DNA of 9,023 nt, from the NCBI GenBank assembly GCA_903828035.1, contig CAIKKV010000648.1, positions 1 to 9,023 on the forward strand, given 5' to 3'. Origin of the DNA: an uncultured bacterium. Its GTDB lineage: Bacteria; Verrucomicrobiota; Kiritimatiellia; CAIKKV01. Below the pieces are notes generated by a model, which saw only the letters and a list, made by a program, of their open reading frames with translations, had not been told where the DNA came from and did no database searches. Shown here piece after piece: positions 2,041 through 9,023 of this stretch. The first letter of the stretch is position 1, and each line of letters opens with the position of its first letter. Made by a program: the position numbers and the translations under genes.

Positions 2041-3957
2041 ATGGAAGAGCGCCACCCCAATCCGCTCCGACTGGCCCTGGCCCAGCTTGAGATCAAGCCC
2101 GGCCGGCCGGCCGAGAACTCTGCCCGCATGCTGGCGTTTATCGCCGAGGCGCGGGCGGCCGGCGCTCACCTGGTCCTCTTTCCCGAAATGGCCATCCCCG
2201 GCTACCTGCTGGGCGATGAGTGGGAGCGTCCCGCTGTCCTCCGCGAATGCGAATCCTGCGGCGCGGCCATTACCGCCGCCTCGGCCGGGCTGACCGTGAT
2301 CTTCGGCAACATCGCCGTCGATTGGTCCCGCAAGAATGAGGACGGCCGCGTCCGCAAATACAACGGGCTCTTCATTGCCGAAAACGGCCGCCTTCTGACG
2401 CCCGACAACGGGCTCGGCTATCCGTTCGTCATGAAGACGCTCATGCCGAATTACCGGGAGTTCGATGACAGCCGCCACTTCTATGACCTGCGCAAGGTGG
2501 CTCTGGAGCGCGGGCGGAATCCGGCCGATCTTGTGACGTCCGTCCCCACGCGCGCCGGCCGGCTGGGCTGCATGCTGTGCGAAGACGCCTGGGATGACGA
2601 TTACGGCTTTTCGCCCGCCCGCGTGCTGGCGGCCCTCGGCGATGTCGATCTGTTCGTCAATATCAGCTGCTCGCCCTATACCTTTAACAAGAACCACAAG
2701 CGCAACCGACTCTTCTCCTCCCGCGCCGCCGAGTTCGGCCGGCCGATCGCTTATGTGAATGCGGTTGGCATCCAGAACAACGGCAAGACGGTTTTCAACT
2801 TCGACGGCGCCTCCGCCGTCTATGGCCCCGGGGGGCGGATTGAGGACGGCCTGCCTTCCTTCGAGGAAGGCTTGCTGAAGGTTGAGCTGCCCGCCGATCC
2901 GGCCGCGTCCTTCGGGAGGGCGCTCGAGCTGAAAGAGGACTCGATCGCCGACCTCTTCAGTGCCGTCTCCACCGGAACGCGCCGCTTCATGAATCAGCTC
3001 GGGATTTCGCGCGTGGTGGTGGGCGTCTCGGGCGGAATCGATTCGGCCGTTGTCGCCGCGATCTACCGTCACCTGCTTCCGGCCAAGGATGTGATCCTGG
3101 TCAATATGCCGGGCCCGTTCACGTCGAAGCTGACGCGCGGTCTTGCCTCCGGACTGGCCGGGGCCCTGGGCAGCCCCTATGGCGAGATTCCCATCCAGCC
3201 TTCCGTCGAAGCGGTCCGCGGGCAGATGGACGGCTTCCGGCTGGTCAGCGCCGACGGGTCGCTCGCCGAGACGCTGCGGCTCACCGAGTTTGTCATGGAG
3301 AATGTGCAGGCGCGCGACCGCTCGGCCCGCATCCTCGCAGCCGTGGCGGCCTCGGCCGGCGGCGTGTTCACCTGCAACGCGAACAAATCCGAGCTCACGG
3401 TGGGCTACTCGACCCTGTATGGCGACCTGGGCGGCTACCTGGCCAACATCGCCGATCTCTGGAAGGGGGAGGTGTATGCCCTGGGCCGCCACCTCAACAA
3501 TGTTGTCTATGGCCGCCCCGTCATTCCCGAGGGTATCTTCACGGTGATGCCGTCGGCCGAGCTGAGCCCGGCGCAGAATGTGGACGAGGGGAAGGGCGAT
3601 CCGATCCAGTATCCCTACCACGACTGCCTGTTCCGGAGTTGGGTGGAGGCGTGGAATCGCACCACGCCGGAGGATATCCTGGAGTGGTACGCCGCCGGAA
3701 CGCTGGAGGAGAACCTGGGCTACGATGGCCGCGTGGGCGCCCGGTTTGCCGACGCGCGGGCGTTCATCGCCGACCTGGAGCGCTGGTGGAACCAGTACCA
3801 GGGCATGGGCGTGGCCAAGCGCATCCAGGCGCCGCCGGTTCTGGGCGTCAAGCGGCGCGCCTTCGGGTTCGATCACCGCGAGTCCCAGATGGGCGCGCGC
3901 TACACGGCGCGCTACACGCAATTGAAGAAGAGCCTGCTCAAGGAGAGTCCGGAATGA
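2041..3957 (+). CDS. nadE: Glutamine-dependent NAD+ synthase
   Basis: The enzyme performs the last step of NAD+ synthesis, the ATP-dependent amidation of deamido-NAD+ (NaAD) with glutamine as ammonia donor, in the cytoplasm. The 638 residues hold two domains. The N-terminal nitrilase-type glutaminase (about 8-290) has its Glu-Lys-Cys triad visible as E49 in LFPEMAIPGY, K132 in MKTLMPNY and C180 in GCMLCEDAWDDDY. The C-terminal synthetase domain (about 300-638) has the ATP-pyrophosphatase loop SGGIDS at 330-335 and NANKSELTVGYSTLYGD at 446-462. The start is fixed by the first nitrilase strand beginning at residue 9. It has no clear ribosome binding site and a promoter-like -10 box just upstream. 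It leads a five-gene run and its stop codon overlaps the next start (ATGA). Two-domain length resembles the glutamine-using bacterial forms rather than the short ammonia-only enzyme. Confidence 0.97.
   Translation: MEERHPNPLRLALAQLEIKPGRPAENSARMLAFIAEARAAGAHLVLFPEMAIPGYLLGDEWERPAVLRECESCGAAITAASAGLTVIFGNIAVDWSRKNEDGRVRKYNGLFIAENGRLLTPDNGLGYPFVMKTLMPNYREFDDSRHFYDLRKVALERGRNPADLVTSVPTRAGRLGCMLCEDAWDDDYGFSPARVLAALGDVDLFVNISCSPYTFNKNHKRNRLFSSRAAEFGRPIAYVNAVGIQNNGKTVFNFDGASAVYGPGGRIEDGLPSFEEGLLKVELPADPAASFGRALELKEDSIADLFSAVSTGTRRFMNQLGISRVVVGVSGGIDSAVVAAIYRHLLPAKDVILVNMPGPFTSKLTRGLASGLAGALGSPYGEIPIQPSVEAVRGQMDGFRLVSADGSLAETLRLTEFVMENVQARDRSARILAAVAASAGGVFTCNANKSELTVGYSTLYGDLGGYLANIADLWKGEVYALGRHLNNVVYGRPVIPEGIFTVMPSAELSPAQNVDEGKGDPIQYPYHDCLFRSWVEAWNRTTPEDILEWYAAGTLEENLGYDGRVGARFADARAFIADLERWWNQYQGMGVAKRIQAPPVLGVKRRAFGFDHRESQMGARYTARYTQLKKSLLKESPE
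3940..3947 (+). promoter_or_regulatory. Strong Shine-Dalgarno site fixing the start of the second operon gene
   Basis: AAGGAGAG lies inside the end of nadE, with its GGAG core 8 bases before the ATG at 3954. This decides the start: the open frame extends some 105 codons further upstream into nadE but has no comparable site there. Confidence 0.8.
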
Positions 3958-7101: not shown

Positions 7102-8517
7102 ATGAGCGATCGGCCCATCCTGACCCGGCGCGATTTCCTGATTCTCGGCGGAACGGCGGCCGCCACGGTTCTTTCGGGGTGCGCCACGAACCCGGTCACC
7201 GGCCAGAGCCAGCTCATGCTGGTGTCGGAGTCGGAGGAGCTGGAAACCGACCGGGACCAGTCGCCGCACCAGTTTTCGGCCGATTACGGCCCCTTGCAGA
7301 ATGCGGCGCTGAACGCCTATGTGTCGGACGTGGGCAGGCAGGTGGCCTCCGTGTCGCACCGGCCGCAGATGCCGTACTCGTTCCGCGCCCTGAATGCCGT
7401 CCATGTGAACGCCTATACGTTTCCGGCCGGCAGCGTGGGCGTCACGCGGGGCATTCTCCTTTCCATGCAGGACGAGTCCGAGCTGGCCGCCCTGCTGGGC
7501 CATGAAATCGGGCACGTCAGCTACCGGCACATGGCCAGCCAGATGAGCAAGGCCATGGTGACCCAGCTGGCCCTGGTGGCCGCGGTGGGCGCCGTGTCCT
7601 ACAAGAACAAGAAATACACGGCCCTGGCCGCGGGGCTGGGCACGCTGGGGTCGGGCCTGCTGCTGGCCAACTACAGCCGCATGGACGAGCGGCAGGCGGA
7701 TGAGTCGGGCCAGGCCTACCTGGTGAAGGCCGGGTATCATCCCGATGGCATGGTGCACCTGATGGAGCGGCTGGTGGCCCTGCACGCGAGCGAGCCCTCG
7801 GCCTTGGAAGTCATGTTTTCGAGCCATCCGATGAGCACGGAGCGCTATGACAGCGCGGTGCTGCGGGCCGCCACCACGTATGCCGGCTTTCGGGAGCAGA
7901 AAGCCGGCCGCGAGCGGTACATGGATTTGACGGCCCCGGTCCGGGCGCAGAAGGACGCCATCGTGGCCATGCAGAACGGGCTCGAGGCCATGGGCGAAAA
8001 CAAGATTCCCGAGGCGGAGCAGCAGTACCAGAAGGCGCTGACCCTGCAGCCGCAGGATTATGCCGGGTTGCTGACGATGGCGAAGATCCAGCTGGCCCAG
8101 AAGAAGTTCCCGCAGGCCCGCGAGTTTGCCAACCGCGCCCGCGCCGCCTATCCGGAGGAGCCCCAGGCCCGGCAGGTGTGCGGCATGACGGCCCTGAACT
8201 TGAAACAGTTCGACGCCGCCTTTTCCGATTTTGACGCCTATGAGCGGATGCTGCCGGGGAATCCGAACCTGGCCTTTTATAAGGGGTTCGCCCTGGAGCA
8301 GATGGGGCGGAAGGAGGCCTCCGCCGCCGAGTTTCAGCGTTTCCTGGAGTCGGGATCGGAAGGCGACCAGACGACGTATGCCCAGAATCGCCTGGTGGGC
8401 TGGGGGTATATCGAGTATCCGGCGGCAGCGGCGGCTCCCTCCGCCGCGGCCACTCCCGCCAAGGCGGCGGCCAAGCCCGGCACCGGCCAGAAAAAGAAGA
8501 AGAAAAAAGGCTACTGA
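7102..8517 (+). CDS. M48-family zinc metalloprotease lipoprotein with TPR domain
   Basis: This BepA/LoiP-like protease is predicted to work in the cell envelope, where relatives degrade or help assemble outer-membrane proteins. The N terminus has a twin-arginine motif TRRDFLILGG (8-17), a hydrophobic stretch and lipobox LSGC with C27 as the likely lipidated residue. This is followed by CATNPVTG, common in this family. The protease domain (about 55-260) contains NAYTFPAGSVGVTRG (103-117), the zinc motif HEIGH (134-138), the third ligand E196 with D200 in SRMDERQAD, and SHPMSTER (241-248). Residues about 284-415 form several tetratricopeptide-type helical pairs. The C terminus is Ala/Pro/Lys-rich and ends in six lysines before GY. 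The ATG at 7102 follows the epimerase stop by 12 bases, with a weak TAGGGA site. Last gene of the run. It may be exported folded through Tat; that is inference from the RR motif. Confidence 0.93.
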   Translation: MSDRPILTRRDFLILGGTAAATVLSGCATNPVTGQSQLMLVSESEELETDRDQSPHQFSADYGPLQNAALNAYVSDVGRQVASVSHRPQMPYSFRALNAVHVNAYTFPAGSVGVTRGILLSMQDESELAALLGHEIGHVSYRHMASQMSKAMVTQLALVAAVGAVSYKNKKYTALAAGLGTLGSGLLLANYSRMDERQADESGQAYLVKAGYHPDGMVHLMERLVALHASEPSALEVMFSSHPMSTERYDSAVLRAATTYAGFREQKAGRERYMDLTAPVRAQKDAIVAMQNGLEAMGENKIPEAEQQYQKALTLQPQDYAGLLTMAKIQLAQKKFPQAREFANRARAAYPEEPQARQVCGMTALNLKQFDAAFSDFDAYERMLPGNPNLAFYKGFALEQMGRKEASAAEFQRFLESGSEGDQTTYAQNRLVGWGYIEYPAAAAAPSAAATPAKAAAKPGTGQKKKKKKGY

Positions 8518-8548
8518 TGCCCGCAAAAAATAGGCGCACGTCGATTCG

Positions 8549-8572
8549 GGAGGGCCGGGTTACACCCCGGCC
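8549..8572 (+). repeat. REP-like element, GGAG type, copy A
   Basis: GGAG at 8549-8552 is followed directly by stem GGCCGGG (8553-8559), loop TTACAC, and stem CCCGGCC (8566-8572), 24 bases in all. The layout, a conserved tetranucleotide at the 5' foot of a GC-rich hairpin, is that of REP elements recognised by RAYT transposases. 32 bases after the M48 gene. Confidence 0.65.
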
Positions 8573-8574
8573 TT
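8551..8574 (+). terminator. Possible terminator of the nadE operon (overlaps REP copy A)
   Basis: A 9-bp stem (8551-8559 with 8566-8574, one G-T pair) and 6-base loop sits 33 bases after the last stop codon and is followed by TTAAAG rather than a long T tract. It is stable enough to slow polymerase or block exonucleases, but as an intrinsic terminator it is weak. REP elements commonly serve as mRNA 3' ends. Confidence 0.45.
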
Positions 8575-8596
8575 AAAGCGCAATCAAGACGCATCA

Positions 8597-8620
8597 GGCT
8601 CGGGTGGAACCTCGCCCTCC
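8597..8620 (-). repeat. REP-like element, GGAG type, copy C (inverted)
   Basis: Read on the minus strand this is GGAG (8620-8617), arm GGCGAGG, loop TTCCAC, arm CCCGAGCC overlapping the loop edge, again 24 bases. It matches copy A at 19 of 24 positions. The stem has two consecutive G-A mismatches in its middle. It is inverted relative to copy A with a 24-base spacer, so the pair resembles a REPIN/BIME unit. Confidence 0.6.
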
Positions 8621-8646
8621 CTGGTGTGTGGCGGAAAGACCTCCTT

Positions 8647-8670
8647 ACACGAAGACGCGAAGCCACGGAA
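8647..8670 (+). repeat. Three imperfect 8-base tandem units
   Basis: ACACGAAG, ACGCGAAG and CCACGGAA follow one another without gaps. ACGAAG-type strings of this kind recur between genes in PVC-group genomes as far as I recall; that is not checked here. Confidence 0.45.
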
Positions 8671-8690
8671 AACATCTGATGCGACGCGTT

Positions 8691-8714
8691 GGAGGGCCGA
8701 CCTCCGCGTCGGCC
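8691..8714 (+). repeat. REP-like element, GGAG type, copy B
   Basis: GGAG (8691-8694), stem GGCCGAC (8695-8701), loop CTCCGC, stem GTCGGCC (8708-8714): 24 bases with exactly the geometry of copy A. Two base pairs differ from A and both changes are compensated on the other arm (G-C to A-T and G-C to C-G), which supports selection or copying for structure. A competing fold pairs GGAGG (8691-8695) with CCTCC (8701-8705). Confidence 0.65.
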
Positions 8715-8779
8715 GCGCACGCTCGGGTGGCGCGCGAGATGGCTTGCACAAAAAGCCCGGTTGCTTTTTTCGGGAAGCT

Positions 8780-8797
8780 GCGGATCACGCGGATTAC
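8780..8797 (+). repeat. Two 9-base tandem units
   Basis: GCGGATCAC and GCGGATTAC are adjacent and differ at one base. They continue the pattern of short tandem microrepeats in this tail. Confidence 0.45.
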
Positions 8798-8918
8798 CCG
8801 ATGCTTTGAAATGGAGACGGCCGTTCCTGGCCGTTAGCGAAGTGATCAGAGCCATAGACAGAATTACCTGGATTCAACTGCGGACTTATGCATGCCAGAC
8901 GCTTGCACATGGGATTGT

Positions 8919-8941
8919 GTAGCGCCGCACTGTGTGCGGCG
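8919..8941 (+). repeat. REP-like element, GTAG type
   Basis: GTAG at 8919-8922 is followed at once by stem CGCCGCAC (8923-8930), loop TGT, and stem GTGCGGCG (8934-8941), a perfect 8-bp hairpin. GTAG at the foot of a hairpin is the hallmark of classic enterobacterial and pseudomonad REPs. Stem and loop differ from the GGAG copies, so it would belong to a second family. Confidence 0.6.
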
Positions 8942-8971
8942 GGCATTCGGGATTTCGGTTTTTGTATATTT

Positions 8972-9023
8972 TCCGTCATCTCGAGCGGAGTCCCTCTTCG
9001 GGACGAAGTCGAGAGATCTCCAA
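8972..9023 (+). repeat. Partial palindromic repeat at the window edge
   Basis: A hairpin with GTCCC (8990-8994), loop TCTTC and GGGAC (9000-9004) is enclosed by a second pairing, CTCGA (8980-8984) with TCGAG (9009-9013), across small internal loops. Strings such as GTCATCTCGAGCGGAG and GTCGAGAGATCTCC resemble dispersed intergenic repeats I have seen in environmental bacterial genomes. The element may continue past the window. Confidence 0.45.

Follow-up and report, generated by a model that had tools for sequence, protein, structure and literature searches.

Why do three hairpins, each carrying the tetranucleotide GGAG at its foot, lie within a single intergenic gap of 506 bases downstream of a gene for an M48 peptidase? 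The gap closes the window, by which we mean the whole 9,023-nucleotide stretch of DNA that was analyzed (Table 1). An initial annotation of the letters alone had proposed that the hairpins have the design of REP elements moved by RAYTs (REP-associated tyrosine transposases). We reach a similar and more specific reading, to which we assign a probability of roughly 0.86: the three copies, termed A, B and C, are REP-like hairpins of a GGAG-headed class that would be recognized, cut and spread by a RAYT. Residue 101 of the enzyme may help to read the second base of the guide.

Table 1. Features of the window discussed in the text
Feature	Position	Strand	Letters and description
NadE gene	2041-3957
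M48 peptidase gene	7102-8517		upstream of the gap holding A, B and C
Intergenic gap	8518-9023		contains A, B and C
Copy A	8549-8572	+	GGAG GGCCGGG TTACAC CCCGGCC; GGAG-headed REP-like hairpin, perfect 7-bp stem
Copy B	8597-8620	-	GGAG GGCGAGG TTCCAC CCGAGCC; GGAG-headed REP-like hairpin, tandem GA/GA mismatch mid stem
Copy C	8691-8714	+	GGAG GGCCGAC CTCCGC GTCGGCC; GGAG-headed REP-like hairpin, perfect 7-bp stem
Terminator-like region	8749-8777		A-rich and T-rich stretches flanking GCCCGGTTGC
Second kind of REP	8919-8941	+	GTAG CGCCGCAC TGT GTGCGGCG; perfect 8-bp stem, classical GTAG head
Interrupted inverted repeat	8977-9023		window end; TCTCGAGCGGAGTCCCTCTTCGGGACGAAGTCGAGAGATCT

Each copy consists of the GGAG head, a 7-base arm starting with GG, a 6-base loop and a second 7-base arm. 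A and B form an inverted pair, tail to tail with 24 bases between them, and B and C lie head to head with 70 bases between them. The coordinates, strands, GGAG start and 4+7+6+7 layout had been annotated correctly. The annotation had also described compensatory changes between A and B, from G-C to A-T at element positions 10/19 and from G-C to C-G at positions 11/18. These changes exist, but they distinguish A from C; B has the letters of A at positions 10, 11, 18 and 19. The palindrome next to the tetranucleotide is perfect in A and C and has two mismatches in B, where GA stands opposite GA at the two middle stem positions.

The gap also holds a REP of the classical kind, which was absent from the initial annotation and which folds at -10.8 kcal/mol (z -4.36). 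Like A, B and C, it is intergenic. Similar GTAG elements with a TGT loop occur in 4 of 193 genomes of the taxonomic class searched (48 in G099, 38 in G159, 16 in G013 and 1 in G123) and adjoin two RAYT genes (L181 and L198). A stretch between C and this REP resembles a terminator by eye. The window ends in an interrupted inverted repeat; none of the 193 genomes matches a search pattern derived from the two arms. Two further hairpins, one at 8813 (GGAG ACGGCC GTTCCT GGCCGT) and one on the minus strand of 8715-8745, were considered as additional elements and set aside, being absent from the matches of the covariance model described below.

The three GGAG hairpins are real features that exceed chance. 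The window has two perfect elements of the form GGAG+7+6+7, whereas its dinucleotide shuffles average 0.003, and none of 300 reaches two. Within the gap, three elements have at most two mismatches, a number reached by none of 2,000 shuffles. When two mismatches are allowed across the whole window, four elements are found and 80 of 300 shuffles reach at least three, so this looser geometry by itself proves little on that scale. As DNA, A folds at -8.8 kcal/mol (z -2.85 against shuffles) and C at -7.8 kcal/mol (z -1.93). B, folded as plain DNA, is no better than its shuffles (-2.5 kcal/mol, z 0.04).

We then used a covariance model, R1, whose 63 underlying elements come from other genomes; these include the letters of A, as found in another genome, and not those of B or C. 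In the window, R1 gives 36.3 bits for C, 34.3 for A and 31.4 for B (E 8e-7 to 1.3e-5), and the next-best match reaches 10 bits (E 2.1). Among eight chosen genomes, with 150 candidates scored per genome, seven have R1 matches: 18 in G001, 12 in G002, 15 in G006, 1 in G069, 61 in G079, 64 in G161 and 27 in G113. G007, which belongs to the family of G001, has none among its 150 candidates. Search by covariance model, which had been suggested with the initial annotation, does find many copies in relatives.

The elements are widely and unevenly distributed. A pattern based on C, GGAGGGN5CTCCGYN5CC, matches in 104 of the 193 genomes of the class to which G001 belongs, 32 of which have at least 10 matches. 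Counts range from 0 to 199 per genome, the highest being 199 in G061, 171 in G014 and 142 in G059. Summed by hand over the 193 genomes, the pattern has about 1,705 matches versus 25 for a reversed control pattern, which has at most two in any genome of the class. For A and B the corresponding pattern is GGAGGGN5TTMCACN5CC; 53 of the 193 genomes contain it, and 24-mers identical to A occur in G069 and G079. In a sample of the phylum, 82 of 288 genomes have the C pattern; some of them are shared with the class set.

Evidence of conserved secondary structure comes from 66 distinct elements in the fetched loci, collected with a pattern that fixes the head, the outer two base pairs and the loop. 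The two outer pairs are uninformative regarding covariation because the pattern fixes them. We aligned 63 of these elements, taking no more than two per locus. Paired cells make up 90.9% of the alignment, as compared with 63.8% in shuffles, and sliding the partner drops pairing to 30-47%. Cells changed on both sides number 105, versus 36 in shuffles, and stem covariation is 0.589 versus 0.144. The stem is under selection. Structure-preserving variation, the absence of which had been named as grounds to abandon the REP proposal, is thus abundant in these two-sided changes.

The mismatched stem of B could be taken as a sign of a decayed copy. We rejected this view, because 24-mers identical to B occur at two places in G161, the same stem is found beside the RAYT gene of L173, and the GA/GA combination is enriched. 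Counting distinct stems per locus, 68 with tandem mismatches follow true heads and 21 of these have GA/GA, whereas two sets of decoy heads yield none among 57 and none among 104 stems; with duplicates kept, the count is 31 of 89, from 10 loci. Tandem GA/GA recurs after both GTAG and GGAG heads (L132, L146, L164, L173, L182 and others). The G·A mismatch fits a known theme, since E. coli REPs are reported to need a mismatched bulge (PMC8266576) and unpaired GA residues are noted in the GTAG-24 repeats of P. aeruginosa (PMC3733652). In two group 3 systems, by contrast, introduced mismatches lowered cutting (PMC8266576).

If the hairpins are REPs, RAYT genes should accompany them in relatives. G001 has five matches to the RAYT model NF047646, one of which is over the cut-off. 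This gene, at locus L014, scores 86.3 bits, above the 80 bits expected of a RAYT with this model, and its translation has the HUH and Y---NP motifs in the form of HIH and YVRNNP. Three inverted GGAG pairs flank it on both sides, one at its start (GGAGGGCCCTGCTCCGTCAGGGCC on the minus strand and GGAGGGACACGCTCCGTCGTGTCC on the plus strand) and two just after its end. A RAYT gene flanked by the same element, as sought by the annotation, is therefore present in this relative, and others are found at further loci. Together with the paired changes among the relatives' copies, the flanked gene supports the REP-like design originally proposed. In 103 of the 193 genomes at least one RAYT match exceeds the cut-off, and the 131 RAYT loci of the class used here all have the RAYT domain. 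At two loci, L172 (G161:C2) and L178 (G023:C41), GGAG elements lie inside the span of the RAYT gene; they separate the HUH motif from the Tyr motif and leave the reading frame open, and the proteins have extra residues there. In-frame REP insertions at this place have been published for subclass 2.4 (PMC6006769).

Comparison of gene order bears on two other interpretations of the window's copies. The closest NadE protein has 78% identity and is encoded at locus L001 of the PVC group MAG MiH-14oct19-188 (G001), where six of seven tested window proteins are present at 61-82% identity; the one missing there is the M48 peptidase, whose orthologue is on a different contig of G001. The other nine NadE loci found have 55-65% identity and include Kiritimatiellae, Kiritimatiellales and Verrucomicrobia records as well as three gammaproteobacterial ones; the window presumably derives from a Kiritimatiellota-like bacterium. 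The three gammaproteobacterial loci (L006, L007 and L010, from Saccharophagus, Marinagarivorans and Cellvibrionaceae) have 55-58% identity to the window's NadE, a hint of transfer. After the M48 orthologue of G001, the best R1 match has 14.9 bits (E 0.14). We do not take this locus as an empty site, because the window stops at 9023 and offers no counterpart for the orthologue's downstream neighbor.

One of these interpretations is that the hairpins are kept for a role in RNA, such as termination or the protection or processing of a 3' end after the M48 gene, with no history of mobility. A starts 31 bases past the M48 stop codon, and E. coli REPs affect mRNA stability and termination (PMC6006769). 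However, the head lies outside the stem as a single-stranded segment and is constant in all elements (by the search pattern), including the copies that flank RAYT genes. Also, the elements occur in both orientations and often as inverted neighbors (30 of 43 pairs less than 200 bases apart in the fetched loci), no T run typical of an intrinsic terminator follows A, B or C as read from the sequence, no Rfam model matches in the window at gathering score, and the M48 orthologue of G001 is followed by no R1 match better than the one given above. We therefore consider a role in RNA as the sole explanation improbable; such a role may exist as a by-product of the REPs.

The other interpretation accepts descent from REPs and holds that the copies are dead remnants, the RAYT that made them having been lost from the window's genome. 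Copy numbers vary greatly across the class, and no element lies near the M48 orthologue in G001. Moreover, G068 has 71 C-type matches and no RAYT match at E 1e-12; either this genome is incomplete, or its REPs have outlived a RAYT or borrow one. Yet the stems of A and C are perfect and copies identical to A and to B exist in other genomes, which suggests little decay. We regard this interpretation as unlikely, although clearly less so than a pure RNA role. In our preferred reading of A, B and C as REP-like elements, the window's genome presumably has or had a RAYT of the GGAG type.

The head of these elements might alternatively act without any protein reader. The loop CTCCGY contains CTCC, to which GGAG is reverse complementary, and head and loop stay constant across stems of differing sequence. 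L014 and copy C suggested that the head might pair with the loop as a built-in lock. Such a lock predicts that head and loop covary, and they do not: GTAG heads occur with loops CTCCGT, CTCTGT and CTCAGC (L113 and L134), and GGAG heads with CTTCGT, CTTTGT, TTACAC and CCCT. We dropped this idea, which we consider the least probable of those discussed, in favor of a head that serves as a guide for the enzyme.

We therefore asked how the heads relate to the RAYT proteins. In a first pass, flanking REP heads were labeled by script at the 131 loci, giving 50 GTAG, 21 GGAG, 5 GTGG, 3 other heads and 52 loci with none. On a tree of the 76 labeled RAYTs, the GGAG label needs 3 changes, versus a mean of 18.6 when labels are shuffled. 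Between 18 GGAG and 50 GTAG RAYTs, separation is complete at two positions of the L014 domain, namely position 6 (V/I/L versus Y/F, one H and one gap) and position 96 (Q/Y/F versus L/V/I/R/A/C, among the residues listed). It is nearly complete at position 95, with T/R in GGAG RAYTs versus 49 H and one R in GTAG RAYTs. Positions 95 and 96 align with H101 and A102 of E. coli TnpAREP.

Final head labels, assigned by copy number, were obtained for 137 of 202 RAYT loci (96 of the 131 in the first set and 41 of 71 in a held-out set), while 65 of the 202 received no head call. In a set of 130 labeled rows, GAGG tied with GGAG was counted as GGAG, and ties between T2 and G2 heads (those with T or G as guide base 2), as well as other heads, were left out. 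All 39 RAYTs with G2 heads lack His at the H101 position (25 R, 12 T and 2 S), whereas 84 of 91 with T2 heads (GTAG or GTGG) have it and seven do not. The sole G2 row with His is L236, which has GGAG tied with GTGG and is left out of the 130. Some heads are less simple than their labels: L164 has GGAG elements in addition to those behind its GTAG label, L194 and L138 have GTAG heads with one or two spacer bases, and L026 and L047 were labeled GGAG in one pass and GTAG in two. The held-out set consists of 71 RAYT loci from genomes unused before, which may be of the same class; among its 41 called heads, 12 of 13 G2 RAYTs lack His, 24 of 25 T2 RAYTs have it, and three heads are GAGG.

Over all 130 rows, position 95 is the column most informative on the head. 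When the main GGAG rows are removed, 106 rows remain, including 16 with G2 heads; position 95 then takes second place among 130 columns, behind a column that is filled in just 6 of the 16 G2 rows, while position 96 falls to rank 41 and position 6 to rank 98. A particularly direct comparison is provided by L252 and L112, which have a common stem-loop (GCGGGGTG CCCT CACCCCGC) with GTGG and GGAG heads, and His and Arg at position 95, respectively. Residues in this region have been connected with the head in previous work: GTAG contacts lie in strand 1, around strand 4 and at the C-terminus, with Q95, D100 and R104 named (PMC8266576), and W94, Q95, E100, H101 and R104 are discussed as the GTAG-recognizing region, in which H101 is sometimes R (PMC6006769). 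The latter source implies Arg at 101 beside GT(A/G)G heads in other subclasses.

The association could nonetheless reflect shared ancestry only, with another part of the protein reading the head, an explanation that we rate at slightly under even odds. On the tree of 130 labeled rows, head and residue need 7 changes each, and a phylogeny-aware test has five independent pairs to work with, of which approximately two agree, none opposes and three do not differ (p 0.5). Because independent switches are few, the tie between head and residue is a strong correlation and not proof. Two further columns also separate GGAG from GTAG RAYTs equally well in the main set. On the other hand, it is position 95 that keeps its high rank without the main GGAG rows, H101 lies between residues named as guide contacts and is itself discussed with them (PMC8266576, PMC6006769), and L252 and L112 differ in head and residue while the stem-loop is unchanged. 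Given that the His found in most GTAG RAYTs is replaced by Arg, Thr or Ser in GGAG RAYTs, residue 101 likely helps to read guide base 2 and, judging from aligned sequences, is a candidate reader of that base. We put a causal role of this residue at about even odds.

On a tree of the 131 RAYTs, 23 GGAG-type proteins form one clade with support of 86, while on the tree of 130 labeled rows the two GGAG subclades are not joined. Nine RAYTs (L133, L163, L169, L185, L186, L212, L224, L243 and L266) are located elsewhere in the tree. In most of them a spacer C separates GGAG from the hairpin, and the H101 position is occupied by Arg or Thr. These nine represent a possible second origin of GGAG.

By analogy with studied TnpAREP proteins (PMC8266576), our preferred reading would operate as follows. 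GGAG would be the 5' guide tetranucleotide at the foot of a 7-bp hairpin, and the RAYT, being a single-Tyr HUH nuclease, would bind this hairpin as folded single-stranded DNA. The tetranucleotide would be used for recognition and for the choice of the cut, and the Tyr would cut and rejoin the strand, so that elements such as A, B and C may have been mobile and may have spread as inverted pairs. The GGAG class, with its two loop types CTCCGY and TTMCAC, would be associated with certain RAYT lineages within this group of bacteria. Residue 101 would help to read guide base 2, and its change would have gone with the move from GTAG to GGAG. In the published guide model, CT is chosen by A3G4 and CA by T2G4 (PMC8266576). 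By extension, GGAG would keep A3G4 and its choice of CT, while T2G4 would become G2G4 and select CC. Of 66 distinct elements, 21 have CT immediately 5' of GGAG, more than any other dinucleotide; TT follows with 11.

A broader hypothesis is that the guide is an evolvable code, His going with T2 and Arg, Thr or Ser with G2. GGAG systems would then have arisen more than once and could share a genome with GTAG systems, as in the window, each blind to the enzyme of the other. We offer this extension tentatively, giving it somewhat less than an even chance.

With respect to known systems, published definitions of REPs use GT(A/G)G heads (PMC3686654), and published variants of the head are GYAG, GYRG, GTRG and GTMG (PMC3686654, PMC3733652). 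A large survey searched for REPs by using GTAG or GTGG only (PMC6006769). Because the GT(A/G)G head is the basis of recognition and was built into that search, a GGAG class would be missed; here its C-type pattern is present in 104 of 193 genomes of one taxonomic class. No word beginning with GGAG occurs in the main texts of PMC3733652, PMC6006769, PMC8266576 and PMC12306157. PMC2817692 and PMC3686654 do list sequences with an internal GGAG; in the accessible parts, these start with GTAG or GTGG, in some cases preceded by an extra base. The suggestion that the family is undescribed accordingly holds so far as these portions of the literature extend.

Among the literature matches listed, only PMC3733652 deals with REPs of this bacterial group. 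It describes the families GTAG-17 to GTAG-20 of Opitutus terrae (Verrucomicrobia), which are REPs of the related PVC group and of which one is mostly GTGG. Its text mentions no GGAG head, and in this respect these families seem to differ from A, B and C. The CGTC repeats of the same paper have a terminal CGTC that is absent from A, B and C. The REPtrons of TnpAREP subclass 2.4 (group 4 of Bertels) resemble L172 and L178 in their WQ and Y---NP motifs and in REP insertions between HUH and Tyr (PMC6006769). This likeness is one of motifs, and subclass 2.4 is listed with NH(I/F/V)H and GT(A/G)G heads, whereas the GGAG RAYTs found here mostly have DH(I/V)H. The L014 RAYT has a single relative of solved structure, E. 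coli TnpAREP (PDB 4ER8; E 9e-7); W94, Q95 and R104 are kept in L014, while H101 and A102 are replaced by Thr and Gln.

The novelty lies in the GGAG head and in how it is tied to the RAYT. Given that the same hairpin occurs with different heads (L252 and L112) together with a difference at position 101, how a RAYT chooses its REP may become a question about one residue. Canonical REPs, whether in BIMEs or REPINs, have the head GT(A/G)G, and in the window that definition (PMC3686654) applies to the element at 8919-8941 alone. A, B and C, with GGAG in its place, appear to work as REPs of a RAYT do and depart from canonical REPs in this one defining feature.
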